Shown here one piece after another: positions 8,563-34,900 of a DNA stretch of 64,000 nucleotides (the stretch's first letter is position 1; each line of letters opens with the position of its first letter). Position numbers and translations under genes: made by a program. Location: contig OX422196.1 of NCBI GenBank assembly GCA_949130485.1, positions 6,865,554-6,929,553 on the forward strand, written 5' to 3'. The notes beneath the pieces are model-generated. The model ran no database searches. It was not told the DNA's origin and saw only the letters and a program-made list of their open reading frames with translations. Source of the stretch: Agelas oroides. Its lineage: Eukaryota > Porifera > Demospongiae > Agelasida > Agelasidae.

Positions 8563-11500
8563 ATGCGAGTACTGCTAATGTTCCTACTTGCCCTAGCACT
8601 GCAAGGTAAGATTTGCTAAAACGTGGGACTATACCTGGTACACCTCTGTATAGTACAATCACGCATCATAAATAGCTAAATGTGTGTTAGATGACATCTA
8701 AAGCTTTCTTTGTAATAATGCAATGTTTGTTCCCTCCTCCTCCACAGCTGCTGCACACACCTCAACTACCTGTCATGATCTGCAGCACATTGCAGATAGT
8801 ACTTCTAGGATAACATGCACCAGAAATTCTCAGTGCAGTGAGCTCCAGTGTGATGTTACGCAAACTACCACCTGCAATTATGTCAAGAGTTTTACGCTGA
8901 TACTGTTACCATGCAACCAGCCAGTTGCTATTCAACTTGTTCTCTTCAATCCTTCCAACGTAGTCATTGTGAATCAAATTATACCAGTACAAGATTACAG
9001 CAGAAACGATGGTACAACAACAACAATTCCAGTTGTGAATGGTGTGTTCTCTTTGGAGGTATACGCTTACGGGTATACATATGACACCTATTATCCAAAC
9101 TACATGTATCCAAACTACATGTATCTATGGGTACGTATTTTGTTAACATGACTATAAAAACACTGTACGTATTGTTACTTTGCCTAAGTAGTTTAGTTTT
9201 GATCAATCTGCATGGACTGCTAAACTTCTAAAGAACTTGGTGATAAGCCTATGTATGCCATGACATATAAACAATAACTGTTACTTAGAATTTCTTTCAA
9301 TCTGATATGATTTAGTGAATGGTTCTGCTTGTTAACTAAGTTAAAGTACTTGAGACTGGCATGCTTGCTCATCTTTCTCTAGTTGAAACTGCATGACTTC
9401 TGAAGCAGGATACATATCGTTATTGCAGTTCTCACTAACTTGAGATCAGAGTAACAGATGGATTAGACCTTCATTATGCAGAACAATTGGTTACTCTTGA
9501 TCCTTGAAGCTATGTGTTTCCAGCCTTTAATCCTGCACTGATACTTCTACTGCATGCCTATTAAGACAGCTATTTTCTCCTGAAGTTATTTAGGTGTTTG
9601 TTGTGTTCTCATCTAGCATATACAGATATCTGACACATTGTCAGGAACACTTCTGTATGGCGATATCCATCTGAACTGCAGTAAGTATATCTACCCACCA
9701 GATTTTAAGTATACACCTTAATTAAAGACCTATGTTCATATTAATTTTTTAACTTTGTATGTTCAAGATTAAGCATATTTACTGCTGAGCCTTACTATGT
9801 TCATAGTTGTGAATACATTCTGAAGGAAGAAGAACATTACAGGAGCTACATTATGGATAGCTGACACACAAACAATGTAACACCAAAAGTCTCATCACAG
9901 CAAAGACACAGAATTTATCAAATCAACACTTGGGGGTTGCATGCAAAATGTTGGTTCAGGTGCATGGGTGAACCAGTTAATGGTGGTCATCCAAATAGGC
10001 AGCTAGTAATTGGGTTTTCTAGCAGTGACAGCGTGATGTTCCCTGCAAAGATTTACCCTTCCTGAGGTAGCTACAACTACAGGGGAGGTTAGTGAATATA
10101 CATCTGGGAGACAAGAGTTGTATTTTAATGTAGCCACTGTACATGTCTCTAATAGCAATGCAACCTAGCAATGCTGGTATCACACTTGACAACTTTGATG
10201 AAGTTCTCACAAGTTTAAGTGGTACAGTGAGGCGTGCAGCTGCCAATGAGTCACAACAGACCACAAGCAACCTTGCCAATACTGCAGCCATTTTGGCGAG
10301 GATTGCAGAACTCATCAGTACCAACACTGTCATTGTTGAAGATGGGGTCCGTCCACTGCTATCTTGCTTTGTACGCAACAATGGTTTTGATCCCTCTTCT
10401 CCTTATCCATTCAGACAGCACAAGACCTGGTCAGTATATTGGGCGGTCTCCAAGAGTGGAATACAGATGTACTGCAAACAAATGCCTCAAAGTGAGTATG
10501 AACAGTACTGGTATAGGTTTGCGCTGCATGTACAGTTGTCCAGTGGCGGAGCTATAGACCCATGATCAATCATGTCACCAACCCTTCCTGTGCTTATCCA
10601 CACAGTATTGTGTTTTCCTCTGAAGAAATCGTGAGTGTGTTTGCTCAGCAACCGAGGAATGAGACCTTTTCTTTCGTGACCAACAATATTCTCTTTGCTG
10701 CTGAGTCAGTGAGTTGGATTGCAGCACTTTTTTTTTCTTGCAGAGGGGTTGAGCTGGCTCTTGTTAAAGACTGTGCTTGTATATAGTTTGCTAGCAGGGT
10801 CTAACATATTAGCTACTTATTAGTCCACATGCAATGACTAGCTGTTATAACATCTTGTAAGTTAGACCCAACCAACCACAGTATCACATGTGCATGATCT
10901 GTGCTGTGGTTACATGGTTGCTTGTGAGAGTTGAAATGTGTGTGATGTGGGGGGAGGGGAGTGCATGCCTCATGATTTCTGTACGTATACATTATGTGAT
11001 TCTGTAATCAGTGTGAAGCTACAACTACTAGTTTTACAATGCAGTCACTATGATATAATGTCAGTTTGCACTGATGGTGACATGTCATATTGACAGGCAG
11101 AGGCCGGGTAAACACCTTGGGCTGTCTGCTATACCTTACCGAACAATCATATCTGGGAGTCTGATCTAATGATAAGTATTGGCTTGAGATGTGGACCCCA
11201 CTAATTTTGAAGTTCTACCCATCGTTTAAACTGACTGTTTGGTGATTAGAAGAGGGAGGATTTGTCTCCTCACTGAGGCTAATGTTTTATCAATAGTGGT
11301 ATCAATATTGTAGTTTCATTCAGCCCTAATGTCAGTTTTGACATTAAAACTCCATTTTCATCCTTTTATTGTTAAAGATATCACAGGCTGAACTGGCTGC
11401 AAGTGGCAGAAGCTTCTCGTCCATTGATCAGACAGGAAATAACAGTATTAATAACCTCAATGAGAATGAAACTGCAGCAGCCTTCCTACCAGCTTCACTC

Positions 11501-14500
11501 TTCCAGTCAATTACAGTCCTTGACAACATTGGGAGCTTTTTTGCTGTTTACAACACTGGAGCACTCTTCCCAATCACAGATGCAACAACTGTTGTGGGTA
11601 GTCCAGTACTTGCAGCTACAATAGGGCTTCGGTTACGTTTTAATGAACTCGAAGAGCCTGTCAGGATCTTGCTTCGGTTGAATGAACTGGGGGTGAGTGT
11701 ATGTTAGCAGAGAGGTGGTTTATATGTCAATATGTAGCTGTGTACATGGCTAGGATAGAGTCTGGTGATTTAAGCCAGGTCTACTCTGGTTTAGTGACTC
11801 TCTGAAACAACATCATGCAGAGCCCAAACAAACTGCAGCCAACAACTCCCTCCGCAAAGTTTTAACTCCCTCTACTAAATTTTAGCCCAAGAATATATGA
11901 CTCCTCGTTACTGTACATAGGATCACTCTGCTGAATTGGCATTGGCTCAACCCTGACTCAAGAGGTCGCTCATGCAACAATGGCATCATAGCTTTGTTCA
12001 TAACAAAGCTATGATGCCCTAACCCACAATCCAGCTAGTCTCGTGCCCGGACTACTTGTTGCTGAGTGGGAAGTTTTCCAACTGGAGTCAATAAGAGTTG
12101 GTGTGGTTGAGCAACACTTGATGGAGACTTTACTCTTTTGGTAGCTGAATAAATGTGGTCATTGGCTAGTTCTGTGTGAAACGCTACTAATGTGAGTATG
12201 TATATTTGTGAGGCTGCTGAAAAACCAAAGCCAGTCTCATCCTTGTACTTAACAGTATTAATTTTATACTCTCCTATATAGCATATTGCAAATGGACGGC
12301 CTCGGTGTGTCTCTTGGAATTTCAGTCTTGAACGTATGCACTCATTGCTGTATGTATCAATATTTAGCTACCTTATTTCCTACCATATACCGTAGTGTCC
12401 CGCTAATACGCCCCCTTCGAAAATACGCCCCCCCCCTCTTTTCCGCCAAAGTTCCTGCACAGGGTAGTTTGACTCGTTATAACGCCCCCCCCCCCCCGGT
12501 GAGCGTCTTCTGGAACATCAAAACTACACGTGCTTACTATACGTTGCAAGTGCGTTCAGTAAGACTATAGTCGTCTCGCTGCCACTCTTGTGCAAGAAAT
12601 ACCAGCAGACTCTGGAAATTTCCCGTGGTACATGACCGACAGTGTTGCCGTTCTTGAGGACAGCTACAGCGAAGTCGTCGTGAATGTTATTGACCTCGCG
12701 TTGAACTGGCAGCTCTTCTCCGATGTAGGGAGACCACGCAGCTTTGTAAACGTGATGTCCGCGAACAGTACTCTCGATCCTGAAAGTCGTCGCCATAGTT
12801 AGTTGATAGTGAAAGGCATTGATTTCATAGGGGGGGGCTTATAGTCGAGACTAATTGCATCCTCGAATATAAGCCCCCCCCCCACTTTAGGCGGGATGTA
12901 GTGTACAAATTGGGGGGGCGTATTAACGGGACACTACGGTATATATAGTTAATTCCTGTTACACATGCAGAGTGGACAACAGAGGGATGTGAGAGAGCAG
13001 AAGTGAATGGAAGTGTTGTGACCTGCAACTGCAACCACCTCACCAACTTCGCAATTCTTGTGGTTTGTGTGGTGTGTGTGTGTGTGTGTGTGTGTGCATG
13101 TGTGCATGTGTGCATGTGTGTGTGTGCGTGCGTGTGTGCATGCATGGGTGAAGTGAAACGATATATTTATGTATACAATACGAGCAAGCACTTATTAGGG
13201 TTTAAACATATATATATATATAACAAGAGAGGAAAAAACTGCAGAAGCAGTATAGTTTATTAGGGCAGGTGAAAACTGTTCAACTGGTGGACGTTTCCTG
13301 TTAGAGCCCTCACCAGATCCACTGGCGGGGCTCTGACAGGAAAGCCTGAGTGCATGGGTGCATGGGTGCATGCGTGCGTGCGTGCGTCATACTACCTGTT
13401 GCTCATCTGATATCCAGGACATCTGCTCAAGATTTCTGGACTGTCCATCTCTACCATTAGATGCACTCACTATTATTGGAGTGGTTCTTTCCCTTATTGG
13501 TATTATTGCTACCATTGTCACCTTGCTTCTGTTCAAGTGAGTCTCGGTTCAAAATGCACCCAAGGGGTATCACCAAAAACTGTTTCTTTCTCTGTGTGTG
13601 CCTTCACTGCCTTGCCAACTCAGTTTTCGTGACACTATAAGCATTTCCTTTATGCAGGAAGCTTCGTGAGCGAGATGCTACCAAGTTTCATATCCAGCTC
13701 TGCATAGCTCTGTTTTGCATGCTGTTCATCTTTGTGTGCGGTATTGACCAAACTGATGATCATGTGTATGGTGGCTGTGTGTTTGTGTCAGTTCTGATCC
13801 ACTACTTTACACTGGTGGCTGTGATGTGGATGGGGGCAGAGGCTGTGCTCATGTTCCAGAAGCTGGTCATTGTATTCGGTCAAACCACCACCAGATTCAT
13901 TATTGCTGTCTCACTTGTCTGCTGGTGTAAGTGAAATATATAACAGCAAGCCACTTCCAGTTACTAGCCTCATTCCTGCTTACCTGCCAGATCTTTCAGT
14001 GTTGTGTAAGTGAGCTTTGGAATATACAACAAGAAGGGAGAAGTAGGGGGTACGGAAATTGGCCATTTTGTTGAATACAGGTTGTAGGTTTCCAAATGTG
14101 TACTACCAAGTTTGAGACTTAATTTTATAATTAGTTTTCCACTATTTCTCCGACTACACCTATGTATTAATATGTTACATTACATTATGCCTTATGTAGA
14201 TTGCAGGAGTTTCTTCAGATCACTAAGTGGCTAACTAGATAGCTATATATATATACAGTTTGCCACAAATGTCACCTTTCTTCTCTTCCCCCAGTGGTAC
14301 CCATCATTCCTGTGGTAATCCCAATGGCTGTAGACCTCTCAGACGTAGTCAGTAGAGATCTTGTTGTACGCATGTCCACAACCGACACTCCAGGATTGTA
14401 AGTTGCTGAACGCACAATTACAGTCATACTCTGAAATGCAAGTGATTGTTCTCTCTCCTTCCTCTATAGCTGCTTCATCTCTGATCCTGTGGTATTCTTT

Positions 14501-15466
14501 GCTACCTTTCTGGGCCCCATCTTTGTCATCCTGCTCTTCAATGTTGTCATTTTTATCATGGTGATTGGGGTCCTCATCAAGCACATCCGGAACACACGTA
14601 ACCGTACCAAAGAACAAGTGAGCAAGAAGAAGACTGCCATGAAACTGCTCATTAGTATGACATTTATTATGTTCCTCTTTGGTCTAACGTGGCTCTTTGG
14701 TGGACTTACTGTCACTGGGGTTTTGGACTCTAATGCTTCTGTTGCTTTCCAAGTTCTCTTTGTGCTCCTCAACGCTTTTCAAGGTTTCTATATCTTCCTT
14801 TTCTTCTGCGTATTCAGCAAGGATGCCCGAGATTCTTGGTTAGAGTTGCTCTGTTGTGGCTACTGTAAGTTCAAGTCACTGCATCCATTGCAGGCCAAGT
14901 ATGGAGCGAATACCACCCGAAGAAAGAGTAAAACCACAAGTACCAACCTTGCTAACTCAAACCGTACTTCAACCATTCCCAGCAAGAGTGATACCAGTGG
15001 CTACAATTTGAGTACTACTGGCCACAGCAAGGAGGAAAGCTACACTGATGTACCCCTAACCAGTACGCATGCAGCAGATCAAGGAGAGGAGAAGCCCAGC
15101 ATGGATGATTTCAGCAAGGAGGAGAAATATGTGAACATACCACACACTAGTGAAGAGGGAGAGGAACAAGCAGAAATGGAGAAACTTTCAGTAATCGTTC
15201 ATAAGGAACATTCAGAGGTTCATGGGACTACAGACAAGAACACTGACCTTGGATCCCCTGAGGTGAAGGAGAAAGAGCAAGTGCTTGAAAGGATTAACAA
15301 TTCTGAGAAGCATGTTTCTTCCTCCCAGTGGAGCGACGATGGGATAGAACTCAAGGTGCGTGTGAAGTGCTACTCAACAAGGAAGCGTCATTTCCAAAGT
15401 GCTGAGGTGGACTTTTTGGATAGTGACAGTGATAGTAACAATGAACCAGGTGACACAAATGCTTAA
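8563..15466 (+). CDS. Adhesion G-protein-coupled receptor with N-terminal six-Cys module
   Basis: Complete receptor of 932 codons in 13 exons: 8563-8605, 8748-9130, 9626-9680, 10156-10346, 10415-10491, 10606-10708, 11378-11692, 12282-12333, 12971-13062, 13418-13536, 13658-13926, 14295-14397, 14470-15466. Exon 1 is a signal peptide (MRVLLMFLLALALQ). Exons 2-3 encode a six-cysteine module shared with the gene at 17370 and absent from the first receptor, which has an HRM there. GAIN exons and GPS (CNCNHLTNFAILV) follow, then seven helices and a roughly 200-residue cytoplasmic tail rich in Ser, Thr, Glu and Lys. From GAIN onward it matches the upstream receptor exon for exon, so the two arose by tandem duplication. 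Exon 4 uses the acceptor at 10154-10155 because only that keeps phase 1. The donor at 10347 (GTCCGT) is weak. Confidence 0.9.
12388..12941. mobile_element. DNA transposon with TACCGTAGTGTCCCG ends, carrying a HIRAN ORF
   Basis: Left end TACCGTAGTGTCCCGCTAAT, right end complementary (CGGGACACTACGGTA), flanked by TA-rich sequence compatible with a TA target duplication. C-runs and G-runs lie just inside the ends. It sits in the intron just before the GPS exon of the second receptor. A second member with unrelated interior is at 40804-41413. Confidence 0.85.
12524..12796 (-). CDS. HIRAN-domain ORF inside a DNA transposon
   Basis: A 90-aa intact reading frame starting MATTFRIESTVRGHHVYKA. The pattern VRGHHVY, GEELPVQRE, N-x-x-DDFAVAV and VGHVPREIS matches the HIRAN fold known from the N-terminus of HLTF/Rad5, where it binds DNA ends. 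No helicase or nuclease is attached, and it fills most of a 554-bp element. Whether it is expressed or serves the element is unknown. It is antisense to the host receptor gene. Confidence 0.7.
   Translation of the reverse strand: MATTFRIESTVRGHHVYKAAWSPYIGEELPVQREVNNIHDDFAVAVLKNGNTVGHVPREISRVCWYFLHKSGSETTIVLLNALATYSKHV
13063..13150. repeat. TG-rich microsatellite with CATG interruptions
   Basis: (TG)n with GCATGTG variants, immediately after the GPS exon of the second receptor. The exon donor (GTTTGT) runs into the repeat. Confidence 0.85.
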
Positions 15467-17369: not shown

Positions 17370-20300
17370 ATGCGAGTACTGCTCGTGTTCCTGACTGTCC
17401 TAGCGCTGCGAGGTAAGAACTTCGAACACATTAACTTTTTGGCAATTGAGCATAATTATGCGTCTCGCACCATAGATAATATATGCACGGAATTCTTCCG
17501 TGCGTATATTATCTATGCTCGCACTGAACACAATCTGCTTATATGCACATGTGCTATGTTTTGATTTCGGTCTGCGATAGATCTAATTTCATACTCTCCC
17601 GCAGCTGCCGCGCAGTCTACCTGTACTGACCTACAGACACTGGCCAGCAGAGCTAGTGGGATAACATGCACCAGAAACTCCCAGTGCAGTGAGCTCCAGT
17701 GTGATGTTACGCAAACTACCATCCGCGATTACATCAGGAGAGCAACACTGACGCTACTACCATGCAACCAGCCAGCAGCTGTTCGACTCGTTCTCTACAA
17801 TCCCTCCAATGCAGTCATTGTGAACCGGACCTTTGACAGTACAGCAACACTTACAGTTGTGGATGGTGTACTTACTGTGACGGTGACAGTGCAGCACCCT
17901 ACCTCCTCCTCCCTGAGACTAGGGGTAATTAAAAAATGTAGAGCACTAAACTTGTAGTGATTGTATGTTGACATAGATACACTATGAAAGATTGTGTTCT
18001 TCTGTAGATAAGTGGCACAGTGAGACTCTTGTTCTTCTCGCGATCACTACAAATACTTCCAAACACTGATATCGCACTGAACACCTCTGCCTGCTTATCA
18101 GGTAAGTATTACACCTATACACATCATGCAACAGAAAGCATTTCACCACCATGACCATAAATAGTATGACTACTACTCTACACGTGTCATGTTACTATGC
18201 TGCGTAGTATATTCGCCCACTCTAGTAAATACTAGTGCACTGCTATGATTTCCTGTAAATTGTTTCACACGCACAGCAACAACTGTCCCTACTGTAGTCA
18301 CGTCAGCTGCTACCACTGCAGCTGGTACACGTGGTTCTCAGGCAACAACGGCTCCCTCTTTGTCTGAGACATGTCGGGCATTGGATACCTTGAGGGACAA
18401 TGCACAGTCACTAAGCTGCAACAGAAATGATGAGTGTGACACAGTCTACTGTACGGTTACTGACTCCACTGTCCGGGCATTTGTCAGTGCAGCAAACCTC
18501 ACACTCCTTCCCTGCAACCAGCCACCAGCAGTCAGACTAACTGCCTACAACCTGTCAGGTGGTGTAGTTCTGGACCGTGTCATTAGCCAGTCAGAGACTC
18601 TTTCACTGCCTCAGGGAACTACATTGAGTGTGACTATGAACCAACTGACCAATGCAATTGGATTTGGGGTCAGTGGGCATGCTAATTGCATCTTGCATGG
18701 TTGTTAAGTATACATAGCTGCACATGGTAAGACCTACAGGTTACCAGCAGTTGGTCCAGCTACAACTGTTAAAAGTAGATGTTTACAAACAAGACGTGTA
18801 CACACATATATACACCAGCTGAGGAAACTATGATAAGAAAACAACAGAGGCATGTTTTTGTTCTAAAAAGTACATTTCAATTGTTTACTGTAAATAGTTG
18901 TCCTTGAACTGCTGTTGCCAAGATTTTAGCATGCCTTTTGCTATAGAAGTGGGCATTGTGTAATGCAGTTAAAGCCTCATTCCCAGGCTTCTCCCTTTTT
19001 TTTTGCTTGTGTTTTTATTCTGCTTCCTTGTGTTACTGTCACAGCAAATAAAACTGGGGGAGGCCTGGACATGAGGCTACAATGGTTATTGTCACTTTGC
19101 TTTGTTGCAGGCCAGTGCAAGTGCTACTGTATTCGGTATAACCAGGAGCACTACGCTTGTGCCCTACACACAAATCCCCATTGATACCTCAGAATGTTCA
19201 AGTGAGTCACTAGTTTTCAGACACAGTACCATGATAGATTGCAGTCAGCAGGAAGACATGTATGGCAGTATACGTACTAGGGTTGTGATTTCTCTGTGTT
19301 CTCCACTCTCTCTACTGCAGCACCAACATCCATGGCTTTGCCAACATCATCTTCCTCCACTACTCCTCCCTCCACTCCTCCCTCCGCTACTCCTCCCTCC
19401 ACTACTCCTCCCTCCACTACTCCCTCCACTCCTCCCTCCACTACTCCCTCCACTACTCCTCCCTCCACTACTCCTCCCTCCACTACTCCCTCCACTCCTC
19501 CCTCCACTACTCCCTCCACTCCTCCTTCCACTCCTCCCTCCACTCCTCCCTCCACTCCTCCCTCCACTCCTCCCTCCACTCCTCCCTCCACTCCTCCCTC
19601 CACTACTCCTCCCTCCACTCCTCCCTCCACTACTCCCTCCAATACTCCTCCCTCCACTCCCTCACCCACGTCAAACTCATTTACAGATGCCACCACAAAC
19701 ACATCCACCCTCACACCCACAGTGGACATCCCTCAGCGAAACATGTGCGTAGTCTTGCAGCAAATTGCCTCCAGAGCACCGGGGAATTTTGAATGTTCCA
19801 CGAACCAGCGTTGTGATGGGGTAGACTGCACCGCTGACCTCTTGAACAATGGCATGCCTTTTCAGTCTCGTGTGGTGATCCTTGTGTGCCAGCTGCCCCG
19901 CCCAGCAGTGGAGATTATCCTCCTTACCTCAAGTGGTGCAGCCATTGTTAATGAGACTGTGGACCACTCAGAAGTACTGTCTGTTCAACAGTTCCTGCAA
20001 GTCAACATAACACTCAACCAATACCAGAATGCCATTGGATTGGAGGTTAATGATCTTGTTTGCTTAATATTTGATGTGCCCCCCCCCCCCCCCAAGCCTC
20101 ATTTCTAGGCCTTGCCCAGCTTTTCATCACTTGCAGTCTGCACTGTATGCTGGATGGGGGCTAGAATTGAGGCTCTCCCCACCCCACATTGAAATTAGGT
20201 AGTTGTCTGTAATCGTTAGTAGAGTAGTGCATCATGTTTACATCGGGGAGTTGGTTGACCTAAGGGGCTCTTCTTGTTTGTTATCAACTGAGGATGAACA

Positions 20301-23300
20301 TGTAACCGCACTGCTCTCCTTGATATGACCTTCTCTTCTTTACAAGATACATACTCTTGTCCACTCACAGGTTGAGGCCACATTTCTCAGCAACCCTCCT
20401 GCTCCTGTCATTGAGTACACTCTCATACCAATAGACACCTCCAACTGCCAGCGCCCGACTCTGAGTAAGTGATGTCATGTTCAGTCATGTGACCTTCAGA
20501 TGTTTTGATTGTTGATGGTAGTCTCATGGCTGGTGTACCTTACAAGTTTATACCGAAGAGGGAGGTGGGTTCTCTTTCATATGTACAAACAAGCTTCACA
20601 CAGAGTGAATAGTAACAACTGAAGAAGATGGAAAACTTTTCCTTCTTCCACTTGCACAATACAATTAAGTTAATGTTTACAACCATAACTATTATAGTTG
20701 ACATTTCAACATTTCTAAATTGATCTGCTACTCATGAATACATTTTACTGCACCCCAAGATTGAGCCAGACATCTGTTGTCTACACAGCCATTAGTGGTA
20801 GTCCTATTCCCAGACAGTTTTTTCCAACATAAATGGTGTGTACCCATGCTGTTTAACACCTGTTTTGAGCCACTAATGCTGTGCACATCATTAGTGGCCC
20901 TTTGGATTTACATATTAACGTAACAGAGGAGCATGGAAAGCTTGAAATGAAATTCAATCTATTTTGTGAGTTAGCTGGTTTTAGGAATGTAGTAGATGTG
21001 CTAATCGTGCAAACGTGGTAGATTGTGTTAGTGCAGTATTAAGTCTCTTGACTGTACTGACTTATTGAAGGGAATTCTTAGATGACTCTCCTACTGTAGA
21101 GTGATTCAACTATGTTAACAACTACATAATGTGACAACAACCATGATAGGTCGCAGTCAGCAGCATGACATGTATGGCAGCAGTAGGGTTGAGATTTCAC
21201 TGTGTTCTCCCCTCTCTCCATTGCAGCACCAACATCCATGGCTTTGCCCACATCACCTTCCTCCATTCCTCCCTCCTCTTCCTCCACTACTCCTCCCTCC
21301 ACTACTCCTCCCTTCACTCCTCCCTCCACTCCTCCCTCCACTACTCGTCCCTCCACTCCTCCCTCCACTCCTCCCTCCACTACTCCCTCCACTACTCCCT
21401 CCACTCCTCCCTCCACTCCTCCCTCCACTCCTCCCTCCACTCCTCCCTCCACTCCTCCCTCCACTGCTCATCCCTCCACTCCTCCCTCCACTCCTCCCTC
21501 CACTCCTCCCTCCACTCCTCCCTCCACTACTCCTTCCACTACTCCCTTCACTCCTCCCTCCACTACTTCCTCCTCCACTCCAAACTCATCTTCAGATGCC
21601 ACCACAAACACACCCACCGTCATACCCACAGTGGACATCCCTCAGCGAAACATGTGCATAGTCTTGCAGCAAATTGCCTCCAGAGCACCGGGGAATTTTG
21701 AGTGTTCCACAAACCAGCGTTGTGACGGGGTAGACTGCACCGCTGACCTCTTGAACAATGGCATGCCTTTTCAGTCTCGTGTGGTGATCCTTGTATGCCA
21801 GCTGCCACGTCCAGCAGTGGAGATTATCCTCCTTACCTCAAGTGGTGCAGCCATTGTTAATGAGACTGTGGACCACTCAGAAGTACTGTCTGTTCAACAG
21901 CTCCTGCAAGTCAACATAACACTCGACCAACACCAGAATGCCATTGGATTGCAGGTTAATGATCTTGCTTTTGTGTCATTAATATTTGATCTGACTTCCT
22001 ACCCCCCCCCACCCTTAGCCTCATTTCTAGGCCCTGTCCAGCTGCTTGCAGTCTGCACTGTATGCTGGATGGGGGCTGGAAATTAGGCTCTCCCCATCCC
22101 CCATTGAAATTAGGTAGTTGTCTGTTATAATTAGTGAAGTAGTGCATCATGTTTACATCGGGGAGTTGGTTGACCTAAGGGGCTCTTCTTGTTTGTCATC
22201 AACTGAGGATGTAAATAGATGAACATGTAACTGCACTGCTCTCCTTGATATGACCTTCTCTTCTTTACAAGATACATGTACACACTCTTGTCCACCTACA
22301 GGTTGAGGCCACATTTCTCAGCAACCCTCCTGCTCCTGTCATTGAGTACACTCTCATACCAATAGACACCTCCAACTGCCAGCGCCCGACTCTGAGTAAG
22401 TGATGTCATGTTCAGTCATGTGACCTTCAGATGTTTTGATTGTTGATGGTAGTCTCGCCATGGCCGGTATGTTTATACCAAAGAGGGAGGTGGGCTCTCT
22501 TTCATATGTACAAACAAGCTTCACACAGAGTGAATAGTAACAACTGACCTTCCACTTGCACAATACAATTGTTAATGTTTACAACCATAACTATTATAGT
22601 AACTGTTGACATTCCTAAATTGATCGGCTACTCATGAATACATTTTACTGCACCCCAAGATAGAGCCAGACATCTGTTGTCTACACAGCCATTAGTGGTA
22701 GTCCTATTCCCAGACAGTTTTTTTCCAACATAAATGGTGTGTACCCATGCTGTTTAACACCTGTTTTGAGCCACTAATGCTGTGCACATCATTAGTGGCC
22801 CTTTGAATTTACATATTAATGTAACAGAGGAGCATGGAAAGCTTGAAATGAAATTCAATCTATTTTGTGAGTTAGCTGGTTTTAGGAATGTAGTAGATGT
22901 GCTAATCGTGCAAACGTGGTAGATTGTGTTAGTGCAGTATTAAGTCTCTTGACTGTACTGACTTATTGAAGGGAATTCTTAGACGACTCTCCTACTGTAG
23001 AGTGATTCAACTATGTTAACAACTACATAATGTGACAACAACCATGATAGGTCGCAGTCAGCAGCATGACATGTATGGCAGCAGTAGGGTTGAGATTTCA
23101 CTGTGTTCTCCCCCCTCTCCATTGTAGCACCAACATCCATGGCTTCGCCCACATCACCTTCCTCCATTCCTCCCTCCTCTTCCTCCACTACTCCTCCCTC
23201 CACTACTCCTCCCTTCACTCCTCCCTCCACTACTTCCTCCTCCACTCCAAACTCATCTTCAGATGCCACCACAAACACACCCACCGTCATACCCACAGTG

Positions 23301-26300
23301 GACATCCCTCAGCGAAACATGTGCATAGTCTTGCAGCAAATTGCCTCCAGAGCACCGGGGAGTTTTGAATGTTCCACGAACCAGCGTTGTGACGGGGTAG
23401 ACTGCAGTGCTGACCTCTTGAATAATGGCATGCCTTTTCGGTCTCATGCGGTGATCCTTGTGTGCCAGCTGCCCCGCCCAGCAGTGGAGATTATCCTCCT
23501 TGCCTCAAGTGGTGCAGCCATTGTTAATGAGACTGTCGACCACTCAGAAGTACTGTCGGTTCAACAGTTCCTGCAAGTCAACATAACACTGGACCAATAC
23601 CAGAATGCCATTGGATTGCAGGTTAATGACTTAATATTTGATGTGCCCCCCCCCCCCCCCCCCCCCCCCCAAGCCTCGAGCTCATTTCTAGGCCTTGCCC
23701 AGCTTTTCATCACTTGCAGTCTGCACTGTATGCTGGATGGGGGCTAGAATTTAGGCTCTCCCCACCCCACATTGAAATTAGGTAGTTGTCTGTAATCGTT
23801 AGTAGAGTAGTGCATCATGTTTACATTGGGAAGTAGGTTGACCTAAGGGGCTCTTCTTGTTTGTCATCAACTGAGCATGTAAATAAATGAACATGCAACC
23901 GCACTGCTCTCCTTGATATGACCTTCTCTTCTTTACAAGATACATGTACACACTCTTGTCCACCCACAGGTTGAGGCCACATTTCTCAGCAACCCTCCTG
24001 CTCCTGTCATTGAGTACACTCTCATACCATTAGACACCTCCGACTGCCAGCGCCCGACTCTGAGTAAGTGAGGACATCTTCAGTCATGTGACCTTCAGAT
24101 GTTTTGATGTCTGGTAGTCTCATGGCTGGTGTTTCTTGCATGTTTACCAAAGAGGAGGGTGGGCTCTCTTTCAAACATGAAAACAAACTTCTCACAAAAA
24201 CAAACATTTTCTCACTAGTCAAAACTGAAGAAGATGGCTGCATTCTAGGCCTCACTCCCAGACCTCATCTGTCATATATATTGCTTCCAGTATTATGTGC
24301 AGGAAAACGGTCTGGGACCGACACTAGTTTCACCTCAAATCTGAACCTATGGTTTTAACAATCTGGCCTACCCTCATACCGAGGCCATGTAGGAAAACTT
24401 TCCTTCTTCCACGTGGCCTGAGTATGAGGCTAACCCAATTCTCCACCATGCATAGCTCTTGGCACAATTAAGGTGTTTACAACTGAACCATTATAGTTGA
24501 CATTTCAACATTTGACAATTTAGACACTGAACTCTCTGGGTATCTTGGGGTGCAATAAAATGTCATTAGTATTTGTGAGTAGCAGCCAAATGGCTCCTAC
24601 TTCACCAGCTGGGCTCAAAGTAGGAGCCAGACATGTGTTGACTAGCCTCGTTCCCAGGCTCTCCAGAACGCGAATTGTACACGCGTGGAGAGCCTGGTAT
24701 CTTTTCTACGTAGGCATGACGTAATCGAAATAGGACTAAAACAGAAAGGTAACGTTTTGCACGTTGTTCAACCAACTATGCGTTCAACGCTCAGTGTGTA
24801 TAATATTCAACCCCCGATAACTAGATAAATGTAGTAAGTTGGCCGCTACCTTCGCTCTTTTTCCTCTTCTGAGTCTCGGGTACGCCCACGCGCAATTAAG
24901 GTCGTTCTACCTCCGTTCTATCTTTGAGGGTTCTCACGTGAGAATAAATACCAGGCTCTCTCCGCGTGTACAACTTCAATTTCGCGTTCCGGAGCGGAGG
25001 AGCCTGGGAACGAGGCTATGTGTTGACTACATAGCTATTAGTGGTAGCTTCATTCCCAGACAGATTTTTTGCAGACACAGATGGTGTGGGTATGAGGCTG
25101 GACACTCAAGTTGGGTTAATAGCACGTAAATTAACATGCGAATTAAAATGGACCACAGGATAACCAGGGAAGCCTGTAAACAAGGCTAGGTAAATTCCCT
25201 AGGGAGTATGTGATGATGTTACGACTGGACTGTGTAGATATCATTAGCATCGTACTCAGGCCGTTTAACGGCCAGGGAACAAGGCTAAATAATTGTTAGC
25301 TGTAGCTGTTAGTCACAATACTGTCGTAGGTAGGAAACTACCCAAGATGGCACTACAAATCTCACAAAGGCAGAATGACCTTGAGTTCGGGTAACAGCCT
25401 GGGGTAATGGGCTGGTCAGTGAACATACTGGTCAGTGTCTTTCCACATCAAACCACCAAGTCTTTTTACGAAAAAAAAATATATATAATAGTTGATGTAA
25501 AATAATGAGGGTAGTCAAATGAGGGGAACAATGAACACACAAGCACAATGCTGAGTGTGCCAGCTGTGTGTGGTTGATAATTAAGTAGTGGCTACTTCAC
25601 TCATAGCTCACCCAGATCAGGACATAATGCTGTGTCCTGCCTCCTCTCCTCTGACCTTTTTAAATGGTGTTAGTCTGATTCCCAGGCCCCCATCCAGCTT
25701 CCTGTTGCTTGCAGTATGGAAAAACGATGTGAAAGGGACATTTACAAGACACTGTTGCTAAATGGCGGGACTTTACTTTGCTTTTGGTAGCCATCACCAT
25801 GGTAAAGAGATTTTTGTCCTCAATATTGAGACAGATGGGGTGGGCCTAGGAGCTTGTTACTCAGTTAGTGTGGACAGGGACAATGGCTACTGACTGCTTT
25901 CACATCGTACTTGCTGTTCCTTGCCAACTTGAGACATGTGCCTGCATGCACCCATGCATTTTGGCTATGTCATCTTGTTAGCCATCATAGTCAGCAGGGT
26001 GTAGGCCCATAATGTGCAGAGGCCAAAACTTAAATACTACTTGTCAACAGTTGTATAGCCTCATTCCCAGGCCTGAAGTGCAGCATGGGTTTGAGGCTAA
26101 ACAGTTGGTGTGTTGATATGGGTCTGTCATACAACCACCTGTTGATATGGTCTGTAATATGTCTACGATGCTCAGAACACAATGTATTTATAACTATTGC
26201 ACTAGGTACTGGAGGAACAGAAACAGACCAGACCACTACTGATGATGATGATGGAAGAGTAGAAGGTGTGTACTGTGTGCCTTGTTCCCATGCTCAGAAC

Positions 26301-27810
26301 ACAATGTATTTATAACTATTGCACTAGGTACTGGAGGAACAGAAACAGACCAGACCACTACTGATGATGATGATGGAAGAGTAGAAGGTGTGTACTGTGT
26401 GCCTTGTTCCCAAGTTCTCCCTCTCTTAGCTTCCTCCAAAGTCTGTATTGAATCACCTTTAATAGCAAGGATGGGGTGCTTGGGAATGAGGTTGAGGTGT
26501 GTGTGTGTATGTGTGTGTTAACGTTATTGTTGTTTCGTAAGGTTTCTTGCAGTTCCTTTCCTTAAGGTAGGACAACCTTGAATCGCGAATCGGGCCGATT
26601 CTGCTCATGAATAATTAGAGTTAGGTGACCATAATGGCGCAATTGAAATTCATTGGCTTGTTTACACTTTCCCATGGCGGCAACCGGAATCAACAAGGGG
26701 GGCGTATCCCTTTGATGTGGCCTTCGGCCCTTTGTAGTGGTCTGGCGGCACTTTCATGTGGCTGGACGGAACTTTGAAAAAATCGTCCCTTAAAAAAAAA
26801 AAAAACAGTAAAGAGATTTTCTAGCTCGTTGAATGTGAAGCTTGCCTGAGTGGGCTTGAATGTTTGTGAGTGTACTGGAAAGGCAGAGAGCCATCCTGGA
26901 AGACGGGTATTATCACACAGTTGTCTGGCAAAGGTACTGTAGAAAGCTGACTTTTCGGGCTTGTAGGCTCCACCCGATTTTATTCTAGTGGGAATGTGTG
27001 TAACTTGGCTCCATTCTAGGGGCAATGACAGGGAGTAGGTTTGTGTGCATAACTCCCTGGCCTGGAGGTGAGCGGGAAAAAGCATACATAGTTTTGTAGG
27101 GGGTGAGTTGGGCTTTCTGAAACTGGGCTCAGTTTTGATTGGTTTGAGTGAAGGTATGTTGAATTTTTCATGAAAGGCAGCACAGCCAAAATTACTGTTT
27201 TTGAGGTCAAATGTGTGTTTTGGCCTGTAGACTGGAATTGAAGTGGTCCCAGGACAAATCCATACGTAAAGTTTTTACTTGTTTTGTGTGTGTGTTGATG
27301 ATGTGGTCAGGCTGGGGGTGGAGCCTTGGAGAGGGTGCAAATTTTTATTTTAGCTGAGGGACTAAAGTTTTTTTGGCATTATCAGGTAGAGAAAGCAGTT
27401 TGGTACAAACTTTTTGTGAATCTTGTGTACACTTACCCATCCATCCGTCCACATTACTCGGAGATCTGTGATTCAAGGTTGTCCCACCTTGTGTATACAT
27501 AGTGGCTGATTTGTGGTAGATAGGCAAGGTTCTAGTTTCCTGCTTTCAGTCTCCAAGTATGGTAGAAGTGTTGTCTGTTGTGGTAGACTGTGCAAGGTTC
27601 TAGTTTCCTGCTTTCAGTCTCCAAGTATGGTAGGAAGTGTTGTCTGTTGTGGTAGACTGTGCAAAGACCTTTGGCTTTGTGGCTTGCAGCAAGTTCATCC
27701 CCACCTTCATGTTTTGTCTTCAAACAGCTGCCTCAGCTGGGAACCCTCTTATTGCCGGAGCCACTGTTCTGTTTCTGTCTCTACTGGGAAGTAGACTTTG
27801 CACTCCATAG
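17370..27810 (+). CDS. Secreted/GPI-anchored mucin-like protein with five six-Cys modules
   Basis: Function unknown. Fourteen exons total 3372 nt (1123 aa): 17370-17412, 17605-17924, 18008-18101, 18277-18668, 19111-19201, 19321-20045, 20371-20464, 21227-21954, 22302-22395, 23128-23621, 23970-24063, 26206-26265, 26328-26387, 27728-27810. Exon 1 is a signal peptide (MRVLLVFLTVLALRG) nearly identical to that of the upstream receptor. Then come five modules, each a large exon with five Cys plus a 91-94 bp exon carrying the sixth. Modules 3-5 start with Thr/Pro/Ser linkers likely to be O-glycosylated. Two duplicated 60-bp exons encode an acidic spacer (TTTDDDDG). The last exon encodes small residues, then a hydrophobic stretch (ATVLFLSLLG) and stops: a likely GPI-attachment signal. 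The donor GTTAAT of the large exons is unusual but repeated. The 3' join over 2.1 kb to 26206 rests on phase alone. Confidence 0.75.
17472..17517. repeat. 46-bp near-perfect hairpin in intron 1
   Basis: Arms ATAGATAATATATGCACGGAA and its complement around TTC, in the first intron of the six-Cys gene. No similarity to the other inverted-repeat families of the window. Confidence 0.8.
18972..19079. mobile_element. Foldback MITE, TAGCCTCATTCCCAGG family
   Basis: Left AAGCCTCATTCCCAGGCTTC, right GAGGCCTGGACATGAGGCTA, 108 bp with diverged arms, ending about 30 bp before the acceptor of exon 19111. Confidence 0.7.
19351..19670 (+). repeat. Thr/Pro/Ser-coding minisatellite, module 3 linker
   Basis: Repeats of CTCCCTCCACTCCT type encode TPPS and TTPS units, about 100 residues of potential O-glycosylation sites. 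The equivalent linker is about as long at 21256-21590 but only about 35 residues at 23157-23250. Confidence 0.85.
21256..21590 (+). repeat. Thr/Pro/Ser-coding minisatellite, module 4 linker
   Basis: Same TPPS-type repeat as module 3 with the variants RPS and AHPS, ending in TSSSTPNSSSD just before the first conserved Cys exon region. Confidence 0.85.
23157..23250 (+). repeat. Contracted Thr/Pro/Ser linker, module 5
   Basis: Starts and ends with the same codons as the module 4 linker but lacks its central repeats, as expected from an in-frame deletion in a recent duplicate. Confidence 0.8.
24643..25018. mobile_element. Long compound foldback element, TAGCCTCGTTCCCAGG family
   Basis: Outer ends TAGCCTCGTTCCCAGGCTC and GAGCCTGGGAACGAGGCTA. 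Inside, a second inverted pair (GAGAGCCTGGTATC at about 24697, ATACCAGGCTCTC at about 24949) gives two smaller hairpins within the large one. It has the same plan as 63218-63424. 376 bp, in the 2.1 kb intron after the last six-Cys module. Confidence 0.8.
26056..26099. mobile_element. Minimal foldback MITE, TAGCCTCATTCCCAGG family
   Basis: TAGCCTCATTCCCAGGC at the left and GGGTTTGAGGCTA at the right enclose almost nothing; 44 bp. Confidence 0.65.
26168..26411 (+). repeat. 122-bp tandem duplication containing a whole exon
   Basis: Units 26168-26289 and 26290-26411 are nearly identical. Each holds a 60-bp phase 1-1 exon (26206-26265 and 26328-26387) with its own acceptor and GTGTGT donor, so either or both can be included without a frame shift. 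Confidence 0.85.
26564..27490. mobile_element. Nonautonomous DNA element, AAGGTRGGACAACCTTGAATC ends
   Basis: Left end AAGGTAGGACAACCTTGAAT and right end complementary with one mismatch (GGTTGTCCCACCTT). The 927-bp interior has a poly-A run and a minus-strand ORF (26690-27085) without recognisable domains. No clear target duplication. It lies in the intron before the GPI exon. Confidence 0.7.
27524..27660. repeat. Two-copy tandem repeat, 68-bp unit
   Basis: GCAAGGTTCTAGTTTCCTGC recurs at 27524 and 27592, directly after the AAGGTRGG element and before the terminal exon of the six-Cys gene. Noncoding. Confidence 0.85.
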
Positions 27811-28827: not shown

Positions 28828-30890
28828 CTAAACAAGCAGAGTCCCAACTATAGTTAGTGCAATCAGAATGGTCACAGAAGGAAAGAATGCCAGTGCTCCA
28901 CACCTTGGTGCAAGTTCGGACAAGAGGTTGAACTCGCTACTGGAATAGCTGCCCACTGTAGACCATGCATTGATGGGGTTGCAGCCACCCCCTATGCCCA
29001 CAACATATTCTTCTTGGAGCTGAAGTAGCCTGCCTTGATTCCCACATGAAGTCAGCACATCTGGACCAGGAACAATCAGTGTTTCACCACGCTGTGCATA
29101 GATGGTAAGAAATATATATACTGGGTAGTGTACTGCATGAATGACATGGTGAAAAACTCACTAGCACCCAGCACATGTATACAATGATTGAGTGCTAGAA
29201 ATATGTGGCTGTCATGTTGGTAAAAAAACTTAGCTATGTGAACTAATGACATCTGCTGGTGCATGAGTCAGAAAAAGACTAGGCTACTGTGATCAGTACA
29301 CAACAATCAGCGAGTGCCAACAGCACCCACACTTATAGCTACAGTTGACTTGCTGGAAAAGAGAGCTCGAAAGAGTACCATAATTACACACCACTCCATA
29401 TGATGATTCAACTGTGTTAACAGTATCCCAACCCCCCCCCCCCCCACACACACACACACACACACATTTTGGTACCCCCGTGCAAAATTTGTTAGGATTT
29501 GTGGCCCCCGCATGCCAAATAATATGAGGAGATATCATATCTCCAACTATCCCCCTTTCCCCCCGTCAATTTTGCATCCATTTGTAAGTGCGGTCATGAT
29601 GAGTTTGACACTATGGAAATGCTATCTAAAGGGCAGTGTGTATTTACACCCATGAATGGTTATGGTTTCATAATGCTACCAAGGAGAATGCCATTACTGT
29701 TGAGAACGAGGACGATGCTCCTGGCAACAGGGAATATGGCACCAAAAGTGAGGAGGATACCACCAAAGTCAATAGTGAGGAGACCATCTATGAGGAGCTA
29801 CATCATTCCCAAGCAAAGGCAGAACTCACTTCTTAGATTCTCACCGCCTGATGCTTGCAACAATTCTACAATTGTAAAGTCATCTCTGAAAAAGTGTGGA
29901 CTGATTCTGAGTATATAAGCGTTACTGTACTGTTGTTTGCATTGCGTATGTAAACCAAAATACTGTGCACATAAATTAAGATATTTTGCATGGGGTATTA
30001 AATATCCTAGGAAATTTAGCACCCAGGATGTGATATTTCCTGACTTGGAAGGGGGTTCCAAATTTCCTGGGGGTTCCATATTTTCTAGGAAAAATGGTAT
30101 GGGGGTCACAGTGCTGTATTTCCTGGGGTGCCTAATAGCTGGTAGCAACGAGAGCTCCCACTGTATAATTCTACAGTCAATAATATGCTTACTGTGTAGT
30201 TGCCTTTGAAAACCCTTGTCACCTCCACTGTGTAAACACAGGGCTGTAATGTTCCCACTTCTATCCGAAGGTATTCACTGGAGCTCCTATCATTGAATGG
30301 ACAAGAGTAGAAGCAATCACTGTCCGTTCTGTTCACAACAGGAGGCATGTCGGTGGTTACACTCTCCACAGCGACACCTGCATGTGTGGGGAAAGCACTA
30401 CTCTTAGTTGGTAACAAGTGCAAGATCCAGCTGAAAGCCACAATTTCAATCTGAATTGTTGAGAAGACCCGCCCTACAGAAAACTGGGCGGGGCTGCTTG
30501 GTTGTATCGGTACCGTACGCCTTTACCTGAGCCAGCAAGTGAAGTAGCTTGAGCCGAACATGTAGCTATTTCGTTTGATGACGGTAGCCTACAGGGTCTT
30601 TCGTCCAACCTCGTCCTGTTCACCACCTCCACATTCACGACGCTCGTGTTGCCCGTTGCGAACGTGTAGTCCTGGCACTGGAGGTTAGCGTCTCCACTCG
30701 CTGGGATGCAGTTACAGGTGGCTCCGACAACTCGAGCCGTGTACACGTCAGGTCTGCTGTACTCTCCACAGAAGTCCTCTTCAATGGCTTGTGTCCTGGG
30801 ACGGTTGAATGAGCCTGGCTGACAGGAACAAGAAAACACGACGCCAGGGAGGGCACATAACAGAAACAGGCAGAGCACCTTCATTTTCAT
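28828..30890 (-). CDS. TIMP-like NTR protein with GPI-type tail
   Basis: Secreted NTR-domain protein related to tissue inhibitors of metalloproteinases. Three exons on the minus strand, 30527-30890, 30193-30377 and 28828-29091, 813 nt (270 aa). A signal peptide (VLCLFLLCALPGVVFS) is followed directly by Cys-Ser-Cys, the arrangement whose free N-terminal Cys chelates the protease zinc in TIMPs. Conserved VYTARVVG, CNCIPASG and VTRVFKGNYT precede the NTR exon (CG, LQEEYVVGIGG, CNPI-x-x-W). The last residues (ALAFFPSVTILIALTIVGTLLV-like hydrophobic run) end at the stop, indicating GPI attachment rather than the transmembrane exon used by its three paralogues. Inhibitory activity is inferred, not shown. 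Confidence 0.85.
29431..29466. repeat. C-run plus (CA)n microsatellite
   Basis: A run of about 14 C followed by (CA)n in the last intron of the first TIMP-like gene. Confidence 0.9.
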
Positions 30891-31995
30891 GCATCTACTA
30901 TCTACGATTTACGTAGCTGACAGTACCGTGGGGGGAGGTGAAAGGTAATCCATAATGTGTGAAAGAATGTTTGCAATGCTCGCAATGTTATATATTAGCT
31001 ACAGTGTTGAAATTAGCTATTAATATAATTAGCTATACAGTCATGTGGGAGTGTCTCCCATTCAGAACCAATGATAAAATATAACGAGAAAATAAATCCC
31101 CCCAGAAACAATTCATCAATTAAGCCATCAATCAGATCTATGACAAAGTGTTAGGTGTTATTGACTAGCCTTCGTTCCCAGGCCTTCTCACCGTCCAGTT
31201 TTTGATCATTTGCAGTATGCAAAAACATACTGCAAGCAATCAAAACTGGACGGTGGGAAGGCCTGGGAATGAGGCTAGTTGTTGACTACAATTTTTGTAT
31301 TAATGCTGTGATGACCATGCAGCAATATGACTTAGTAGTGTCACCATTGAAGGCCAGGTTAATGTGATGATATGAACTAATAAAGAAGATGTGCTGATAA
31401 CCAATTAGTCAGCTAATTGTATGTGCTAGCAACCACCGATTAGTCGATTATGAAAGTAGTCATTTGGACCCTACAAAGTGGGCAAATGTAACAAGTAAAA
31501 CCATCCTGCCAGGATAGCCATGAGTTCAGCACATCCTGGCTGTGTTAGCCAACAGTCAGAAAATGTGACAACGTACTAAGTCTTGGCACTAATACCTCTG
31601 CTAATACCTGATAGCAGTTCATCTAACCTCATTCCCAGACTCTCATACATGGACCTGGGAATGAGGCTACATCTCATCACGAGTAGTCACAGCAGAGTGA
31701 CAGTGAGAAAATACATAGTTAGTAAATATGAAATAGTATTATGTTCTAGCTGCTTGCTACAGCACTATGCAAGTTTTAATTACTTATACTGAGCGTGTGA
31801 ACCAGGAACAAAATTTTTGCAGAAAATTTTCAATGTCGTACAATAGGTACAAAATCAATTCAGTTGATTAAAACTGAGTGTGTATTATAATAGCATTAAG
31901 CCAGGAACAACTGATGGAGTTCTCATTGATATACAACACATACTACATACAATACAGTAACATTACATCTAGCAGTACTGCACGCCTACTGCTGC
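30891..31995. other. Region upstream of the first TIMP-like gene
   Basis: No coding support. It contains the hairpin at 31166-31277 and a minimal relative at about 31625-31670 (CTCATTCCCAGAC paired with CTGGGAATGAGGCTA). The promoter of the gene at 28828-30890 must be here. Confidence 0.7.
31166..31277. mobile_element. Intact foldback MITE, TAGCCTYRTTCCCAGG family
   Basis: The best preserved 112-bp copy: TAGCCTTCGTTCCCAGGCCT pairs with AGGCCTGGGAATGAGGCTA, and the arms continue through CACCGTCCAGTTTTTGAT to a small loop (GTATGCAAAAACATAC). Confidence 0.9.
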
Positions 31996-34900
31996 TCACT
32001 CCTTTTCATCGATTGCAGTTGTCCCACTCTCCACATTGTAGGATGACTTCTCATTCAGGGATTTGGCTTTAGGGCGGTGCTGAAGTATACAAAAAGTTTT
32101 CATTCATATTATACCATAGAACTAAAGTCACACAAACAGGAGACTCCCAGCAGTACTAGCAGTGTGGTAGCTAGTCTCTAGGAGCAGAGTAGAACAAGCT
32201 ACAGTCTAATGTACTATAGAAAGCAATGCTGGTCTCTTGGACGGTTAATAGAACTGTGAAATGTCTCGTTAATAATTGTTGGTGTAGTAGGGCAGGATCA
32301 TATGATTCATGGCATGACTGTACATGAAGCTCTATAGTCTCCATCTTGCCAGGCTGCTCACTGCTGCCCATAGCAAAAATGGAGTAGAGCTGTCCCAGGT
32401 GATCATGGGAAAGTGGCATATGTAACTGTTTGCAAACCTAACCCTCTTAACATCCTGCTCAGACACACAGCACATCATAGAGACATACCTCAATCATAAA
32501 GAGCCCAATCTTAGAAGTAGGGTGTCGGTAGCCGTACACGAGGACACCCACACATACTGCTATCCCTGCCAACACTATCAGGAACACAAGTCCTCCCAGA
32601 ACAACCCCTGCAATGGCTCCAGAGGATAGGGGGGGACCTTGTGGACCTAGGGATATGGTAGTATGATGGATAAATGCAAGTAACAAATGCATGTGTGTGT
32701 GCATGTGTGTGTGCATGTGTGTGTGTGTGTGCATGTGTGTGTGCATGTGTGTATATATTATGTGAACCACTTGCATACACGTAGTCCAATGCATACATGC
32801 AGGGAAAAAGTTTTGAAACTTAATCTGCATGTGCTAGGCATGGTGGCAGTGGAACCAGTATGGATACACAACAACATACAGTATAGAAGCCAGGGAGCAG
32901 TGAAAGTGCCGACAGCACAATGAATGGCGACATATATATCAGTTATTTTGTCTACACCTCTGCTAGGTGTAGAGGCAGTGGAACATACTCAACAATAACA
33001 GCAGAAGCAAGCACAATTTCTGGCAATCAAAAACCTTGATCCCGGTTGCAAACTCTTCAACAGGTGACATAACATTGCAACTTTCAGCAGTATGGGAAAA
33101 TGATAAAGGCTGTGGTGGTCTAGCTGATAACAGGGTGAGGGTAAGTGATCATATTGCCAGGAAGTGCAACCATCTTCTTACTAGCAAGAAGCTCCACATG
33201 CAGGTTTTTTTAAAGAGCGCCCACTTCCCTCTTTGGTAAATGTGTAAGGTAGGTACACCATTCCGTATGGGCCCTATTTCTCAAGTGGTCAATATAACAG
33301 CCTTAATCTGATGGTCACATGACTGAACATGACATCACTTACCCAGCGTTGGGCGCTGGCAGTTGGAGGTGTCTATTGGTATGAGAGTGTACTCAATGAT
33401 AGGAGCAGGAGGGTTGTTGAGAAATGTGGCCTCAACCTGTGGGTGGACAAGGGTAAGAGTTCTAACAGAGAGATCTGAAATGAGATCTGGTTACATGGTA
33501 GTAACTCAAGTAATGACACACAAGAAGAGTGATTACCCATATCTTAGTCAGATTTCCCAGAGGAATGTACTGCTTCATACATAGTAGGAGAGATTGACAT
33601 TCTTGTTATATGGCAGTAGCTTTATGAGGTTCAATTAATGAAATAAAGATTATTAACCTGCAATCCAATGGCATTCTGGAGCTGGTTGACTGTTATGTTG
33701 ATTTGCAGGAACTGTTGAACAGACAGTACTTCTGAGTGGTCCACAGTCTCATTAACAATGGCTGCACCACTTGAGGCAAGGAGGATAATCTCCACTGCTG
33801 GGCGGGGCAGCTGGCACACAAGGATCACCGCACGATACCGAAAAGGCATGCCGTTGTTCAAGGGATCAGCACTGCAGTCTACCCCATCACAACGCTGGTT
33901 CGTGGAACATTCAAAATTCCCCGGTGCTCTGGAGGCAATTTGCTGCAAGACTGTGCACATGTTTCGCTGAGGGATCTCTACCGTGGTAGTGAGGGTGGGT
34001 GTGTTTGTGGTGGCCTCTGTAAATGCTCTACACCCTGAAGCAAGTTGTGTCAGGAGGTTGAGCTCACTACTGGAATAGCTGCTTACTGTAGACCACTCAG
34101 CAATGGGATTGCAGACACCCCCTATGCCCACCACATATTCCTCTTGGAGCCGAAGCAGTATGCCAGGAGCCCCACATGTGGTCAGTACATCTGGACCAAC
34201 AACAACCAAGGTTTCACCAGGCTGCAAACAATGAGGAAATGTGACAACATACATAGCGGAATAGCATTCCACTGCATTGCATGGTACACCTAGAAACTAA
34301 GAAATATCAACTAGCAGACATACATACTTGAAAGAACAGGGTTGCTAACCAGAATAAACTTGTGATATTCTACATGCACAAAGTTGATATCCTTGCATGC
34401 AAGAGTAACATCGCTAGAAATGTATCTGATAGTAGAGCAGGAAGTTTAGTGGCTCTTTGAATTTACATATTAGAGGAACATGAATGAAATTCAGTCTAAT
34501 TTCAATGTTTTGTGAGTTAGGCAATGTACTCTGGTTTTGAGTCTTTTGACTACACTGACTTATTGAAGGGAATTCTTAGATAATTCTCCTACTATAGGGT
34601 GATTCAAGTCTATGTTAACAACTATACATAATGTGCACAACAACTTCCACTGAATGTTCCACAAGTCTATGTCAAATGTTTGCACACCGCTAAAACAGTA
34701 ATCTTGATTACTATGGTTGCATGAATGCTAATCAACAGTATGGGACAATTCCGTAGAAGTGAATACATGAATAGCCTTCCACATTTTTAGCCTTCCACAT
34801 TTTTTTTACACGCCCTACATTCTGGATAGTCACCCATTTGTATAGTAATCAAATACTTTGCTAAAACAACTTTTGATAGTGTGTACATGCATGCATGCAA

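Follow-up and report, generated by a model that had tools for sequence, protein, structure and literature searches.

An unnamed six-cysteine exon-pair module in unrelated surface-protein genes of the sponge Agelas oroides

The stretch of Agelas oroides DNA analysed here (the window) comprises 64 kb of contig OX422196.1, C14:6865554-6929553 in a genome of 259 Mb and 141 contigs. It carries an adhesion G-protein-coupled receptor (GPCR) gene, receptor B, a gene at 17370 with a tandem array of five modules (the tandem gene) and, on the minus strand, a gene, NTR1, that resembles TIMP and NTR proteins. All three contain versions of one module of probably about 130 residues. Cysteines 1-5 of this module are encoded by a first exon, which is followed by a phase-0 intron and a second exon with the sixth cysteine.

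The host genes and their modules

Both GPS and 7tm_2 were found in receptor B by Pfam, as expected of an adhesion GPCR, and its frame is open from the signal peptide through module c1, across a phase-1 junction, to the exon at 10156, which we take to encode the start of a GAIN domain. A Pfam scan of 11348-11704, the sole stretch scanned for GAIN and one that lies outside the first GAIN exon, returned 0 families. The tandem gene has 11 exons and 1056 open codons which specify a signal peptide, modules c2 to c6 and Thr/Pro-rich linkers; its family is probably GPI-anchored, judging from the hydrophobic C-terminal end. NTR1 is open from 35955 on the minus strand, with a signal peptide, three NTR-like exons, c7 and a transmembrane (TM) exon, and its splice sites are intact. 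The features are listed in Table 1.

Table 1. Position, strand and character of the features in the window
Feature	Position	Strand	Remarks
Two adhesion-GPCR paralogs (receptors A and B), side by side	390-6844, 8563-15466		Differing upstream ectodomain exons
Receptor B signal-peptide exon	8563-8605	+	Ends in phase 1; from translation
c1 exon 1	8748-9130	+	Cys 1-5 plus an extra Cys; phase 1 in, phase 0 out
c1 exon 2	9617-9680	+	Sixth Cys; phase 1 out
Receptor B GAIN exon, start	10156-10346	+	In-frame phase-1 join after c1; homologous to receptor A from 390 onward
Receptor B GPS motif	12970-13062	+	PF01825, E 8.3e-13
Receptor B 7TM and cytoplasmic part, several exons	13641-15466	+	PF00002 (7tm_2), E 3.7e-10 and 1.1e-13
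Tandem gene signal-peptide exon	17370-17412	+	From translation
c2 (type I module)	17605-17924 + 18008-18101	+
c3 (type II module)	18277-18668 + 19111-19201	+
c4 (type III module)	19321-20045 + 20371-20464	+	First exon includes Thr/Pro-rich linker
c5 (type III module)	21227-21954 + 22302-22395	+
c6 (type III module)	23128-23621 + 23970-24063	+
Acidic tail exons	26206-26265 + 26328-26387	+	Product of exact tandem duplication
Tandem gene last exon	27727-27810	+	Hydrophobic end resembling a GPI-anchor signal (by eye)
Row of four NTR/TIMP-like paralogs	28891-49557	-	C-terminal ends: hydrophobic GPI-like, module + TM, TM
NTR1 TM exon	32490-32646	-	Common to NTR3 and NTR4
Tandem-gene block within NTR1	33306-34025	-	Part of an exon, the internal intron, exon 2 and the beginning of the next intron
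c7 exon 2	33343-33436	-	Sixth Cys; phase 1 out
c7 exon 1, fused to NTR1 exon c	33658-34221	-	Fusion junction near 34024-34030
NTR1 exon b	35046-35227	-	Open frame
NTR1 exon a, with signal peptide	35595-35955	-	Open frame; NTR/TIMP-like label by eye
NTR3, module-free sister	38116-39286	-	NTRc homology stops at 39286; TM exon about 38271, acceptor AG lost
NTR4 empty site, no module	46420-47731	-	Phase-1 NTRc donor 47731, intron, TM exon from 46574

A first-pass annotation of the window had proposed seven copies, one in the receptor, five in the gene at 17370 and one in the TIMP-like gene, and all seven exon pairs could be located and spliced at the positions it gave. Since c4 to c7 are near-copies of each other, the seven amount to four distinct sequences. 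GT donors and AG acceptors are present throughout, and the intron within each pair is in phase 0. Exon 1 of c1 matches the profile hidden Markov model (HMM) of the module with E 3.2e-22, in an alignment that stops short of the profile end. Of the motifs proposed for the module, L-x-C occurs in all seven copies, but C-x2-L-Q, the C-[ST]-x-N-x-x-C core and [DQ]-C hold for six, c3 having C-x2-L-D, C-N-R-N and Y-C instead. The sixth cysteine does lie on a separate exon in every case; however, this exon measures 64-94 bp, and the lower figure of 55 bp is obtained only with an alternative c1 acceptor. Every module is left in phase 1. Entry in phase 1, likewise proposed for all, applies to c1-c6 but not to c7, whose first exon is fused to an upstream NTR exon having a phase-0 acceptor. 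The 5′ phase-1 intron expected of a class 1-1 module is thus found in 6/7 window copies, and it is absent from some copies elsewhere. The data support the exon pair as a real module, with outer boundaries in phase 1 and common to unrelated architectures. Disulfide pairing of its six cysteines is very probable, and an extracellular location follows from the signal peptides, the cysteine pattern, the linkers, GPS and the TM segments.

Two local repeats were seen in the tandem gene. The linkers preceding c4, c5 and c6 are rich in Thr, Pro and Ser, differ in length and look by eye like a coding minisatellite (19340-19660 and 21260-21580). An exact 123-bp tandem duplication (26168-26290 and 26290-26412) doubles the acidic tail exon.

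A family without a named match in the libraries searched

Single-protein searches of the genome pointed to stretches on contigs C1, C3, C4, C5, C9, C11, C15 and C20. The four distinct window exons served to build an HMM. At E<1e-3 it matched 34 of 7379 frames, of which 7 belong to the window and 27 lie outside it, with a best value of 3.6e-47; among 14,758 frames that had been shuffled or reversed it matched none, the best E being 0.53. The 27 outside matches represent a biased rate, because the 7379 frames came from candidate-bearing stretches and a small number of these matches are fragmentary. The iterated profile gave 37 exon-1 matches over 8 contigs, fragments counted. A donor within 20 nt of the sixth cysteine was present in 21 of 37 exon-2 rows, two of them orphan exon-2 copies, and always in phase 1 (7/7 in the window). 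In all printed exon-1 pairs with dS 0.01-1.5, the ratio of nonsynonymous to synonymous substitution rates (dN/dS) was below 1 (0.09-0.99), which we read as constraint.

The hosts are indeed unrelated (a 7tm_2/GPS receptor, the tandem gene and NTR1), but there are more than the three architectures first proposed, as the module also occurs in a TIG protein. At this locus (L009) a TIG domain (E 6.7e-7) lies in a single open frame with module exon 2, while an AMOP hit of the same locus remained below the cut-off (E 0.022). At a further locus (L022) exon 2 continues into a hydrophobic stretch that looks TM-like by eye. EGF exons lie near the copies at L013 and L014, and a NIDO exon near L015; these are linked to the module by closeness only.

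Some copies are broken. The L020 copy is truncated, and L017 holds an inverted, decayed c1-like fragment (L017:2871-2963) upstream of an adhesion-GPCR paralog carrying an HRM-like stretch in place of the module. Two exon-2 rows of L018 (5299 and 3532; C9:6.22M) are type II copies of exon 2 for which no type II exon 1 can be read. They were apparently left by tandem duplication and would be out of phase with the exon before them.

The first reading had recognised no named domain family, and this view has held for the libraries searched. Pfam, searched with 4 and then with 20 members, returned only weak single hits, none common to two members and, for the 20, none below E 0.01; wherever Pfam cut-offs were printed (the four proteins of the first scan and member 1 of the second) all scores were under them. 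Glyco_hydro_32C (0.01), DUF7436 (0.018), TMEM219 (0.13) and others were accordingly rejected as identities, DUF7436 being also without a match in a search of the whole genome for that family. A module profile search of PDB sequences gave 0 hits. Part of c3 exon 1 (18357-18668) was modelled as a helix and eight strands (predicted local distance difference test, pLDDT, 82; predicted template modelling score, pTM, 0.75), and Foldseek found no coherent fold match for this exon-1-only model. Exon 1 is thus predicted to form an N-terminal helix followed by strands. A prokaryotic origin found no backing either, a single-protein scan of genome contigs yielding 103 pattern matches of which 0 were confirmed, and no phage match was obtained at E<=0.1, with viral contigs and plasmids outside the module search. 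The family is genuine and of class 1-1, has no name in the libraries searched, and shows a recent insertion together with an empty site.

Sources of the receptor and NTR1 modules

In a tree of 35 rows, cut at 135 residues and produced by automatic splicing, c1 grouped with the type I modules (95/84) and c7 with type III (100/98), and a single clade of all tandem-gene modules was rejected (p-AU, the approximately unbiased test, 1.3e-70); in this tree a wrongly chosen acceptor leaves a few intron-derived residues in c4-c6, some rows extend past the sixth cysteine, and the program flagged several long branches, c1 included.

The similarity of receptor B to the tandem gene extends to the signal exon, where 8563-8611 is 86% identical to 17370-17418 over 50 aligned positions, and the module exons are 84% identical over 166 aligned positions. 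Receptors A and B are collinear starting at the GAIN exon, and no module match was found upstream of receptor A. We have counted this sharing of both c1 and the signal exon with the tandem gene, together with collinearity of A and B only from the GAIN exon onward, in favour of shuffling into receptor B. The receptor module would then derive from the first module type, together with the signal-peptide exon, the transfer probably running towards the receptor. Among the four paralogs examined (A, B, L016/L017 and L028) only B has an intact joined module. By position, the ectodomains of its sisters are Ig- and fn3-like upstream of A (L032:9061-9825) and HRM-like on C1, all below the Pfam cut-off. 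The genome contains 154 counted 7tm_2 matches; among those listed, the ones at C14, C1:21.61M and C4:5.315M lie near module copies or remnants, and that at C4:5.315M adjoins a short decayed fragment. Receptor B also has, between its GAIN and GPS exons (12430-12950), a segment with runs of C and of G at its ends that by eye resembles a small mobile element.

NTR1 matches NTR2, NTR3 and NTR4 as far as 34024-34030. From there, 34025-33646 is 93% identical to c4 (19678-20057), and 33455-33306 is 95% identical to exon 2 of the tandem gene and its flanks (20352-20501). Downstream of the block the NTR TM exon resumes, as in NTR3 and NTR4; NTR2 continues to a hydrophobic end. At the empty site of NTR4 the phase-1 donor joins in frame to the phase-1 acceptor before the TM exon. 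The stretch CATTTACAG at the NTR1-c7 junction is present in c4 too, so microhomology is possible. The breakpoints of the block and the empty-site comparison strengthen the idea of shuffling, and they indicate that NTR1 recently gained its module from type III of the tandem gene next to it, the site being a phase-1 intron that a sister gene retains without an insert.

The label TIMP-like, given to this gene at first, has no profile support: NTR1 matched 0 Pfam families at E<=1, and a comparison with PDB returned no TIMP and only two unrelated hits (E 0.09). The likeness to TIMP/NTR domains, which we presume from a V-F-K-G motif and from the C-x-C that opens the chain behind the signal peptide, both noted by eye, is therefore to be read as resemblance, and it concerns the host, not the module.

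Interpretation, alternatives and related systems

We explain these data by a mobile extracellular module which spread in this genome by tandem duplication and exon shuffling, a reading to which we give a probability of roughly 80%. Phase-1 introns at both ends would permit its in-frame insertion into other secreted or membrane genes. From the family of the tandem gene a type I module, accompanied by the signal-peptide exon, would have reached the adhesion GPCR, and a type III module would recently have reached the NTR/TIMP-like membrane gene. Elsewhere a copy is joined to a TIG domain.

Several points weigh against this reading or qualify the evidence for it. A GT at one codon, in phase 0, is found in 33/33 copies that reach the profile end (next commonest offset 14), but the result is mildly circular because the last profile column is a Val encoded by the donor GT itself; outside the 33 are c1, with a donor further on, the L017 fragment, the truncated L020 copy and the edge-cut L024 copy. 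A clear nearby phase-1 donor is lacking in 16/37 exon-2 rows, two of which have an ambiguous one inside coding sequence, and no exon 2 was obtained for 3/36 copies (L017 not being among the 36). At C9:0.431M signal peptide and module form one open frame with no entry intron, and in the C20, C15, C3 and C11 clusters module exon 2 can continue directly into the next exon 1. The exon-2 assignments on C20, C15 and C3 are based on weak similarity (about 31-50), with a guide list that already contained some of these peptides. The c4/c7 pair has a dN/dS of 0.99 (dS 0.059, dN 0.058). Of the insertion joints in NTR1, the 5′ one lies in coding exons and the 3′ one in an intron, so the exon ends are not both clean. 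Finally, the structural model covers exon 1 only, from an alignment of seven window rows of which four are distinct, and leaves out exon 2.

This last point bears on the most serious alternative, which is possible but in our view doubtful, namely that the module belongs to a known family of extracellular domains but has diverged strongly, and that Pfam profiles and Foldseek have overlooked this, especially with exon 2 unmodelled. Whole-gene or segmental duplication of related genes, rather than shuffling, could also distribute a shared module, and many copies are indeed tandem duplicates, with the block of receptor, tandem gene and NTR gene itself duplicated on C1. We nevertheless regard this as very improbable and already contradicted by the abrupt breakpoints: outside the module the hosts are unlike one another (7tm_2/GPS; tandem array; NTR and TM), c1 and c7 are of different types, and the c7 block ends abruptly, with sister NTR genes in the window that lack it.

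The NTR1-c7 junction might instead belong to a pseudogene or be an assembly joint, and not an expressed fusion. It is the single such fusion seen, the frame of the last NTR1 exon is not settled, and two sisters may be decayed, since NTR3 has lost its acceptor and NTR4 has a stop in exon a. However, NTR1 itself is open from the signal peptide to the module and the TM exon with its splice sites intact, which makes this explanation unlikely.

The module may be a recognition or adhesion unit displayed on stalks, in a GPI-anchored array or a TM protein. On the receptor it would be the outermost domain, and when it is engaged or pulled the effect would fall on the GAIN/GPS unit with its tethered agonist, as known from adhesion GPCRs. 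A bolder version, rather improbable as it stands, has an actively shuffled extracellular domain family that is new and confined to sponges or a part of them, in which the receptor and the GPI or TM ligands encoded next to it bind via copies of one module, the cluster thereby functioning as a recognition system of its own making.

Class 1-1 shuffled extracellular modules include Ig, fn3 and others, according to the review by Patthy (PMC8001218). Like these, the present module appears to be extracellular, has a phase-1 intron on each side and occurs in several unrelated multidomain surface proteins. It differs in having no named match in the searched libraries and in a conserved phase-0 intron that isolates the sixth cysteine on its own exon, and its one recent event differs from theirs by a coding-exon breakpoint on one side. 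The adhesion GPCRs of the sponge Amphimedon have EGF, fn3, HRM, Ig, SRCR, DUF and other Pfam domains in their ectodomains (PMC4302439, in its available portion). Receptor B resembles them in its GPS, its 7tm_2 and an N-terminal ectodomain unlike that of its sisters, but no such six-cysteine module is described in that portion. SECOM puts the number of putative novel domains in the proteome of Amphimedon at 1,783; the one sponge-specific domain named in the accessible text, in NTPases, differs from the module (PMC3386278), which could be among the unnamed clusters. As far as their available parts go, no description of the module is contained in PMC4302439, PMC3386278, PMC8001218 or PMC12716839, and it may have been published elsewhere.

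What appears to be new here is the recent insertion into an NTR gene at an intron that is empty in a sister, and a receptor module from the first type that probably arrived with its signal exon. The findings point to one adhesion GPCR altering its ectodomain through sharing the 5′ end of a neighbouring gene. A further unnamed module type that shows, within one stretch of 64 kb, both a recent insertion and a sister gene with the empty site would make the steps of domain gain directly accessible to study, and it would open the questions of which breakpoints are used, whether microhomology is involved and what role a gained domain has.

Apart from these genes, the window contains a tRNA gene at 51787-51860 (Rfam RF00005).

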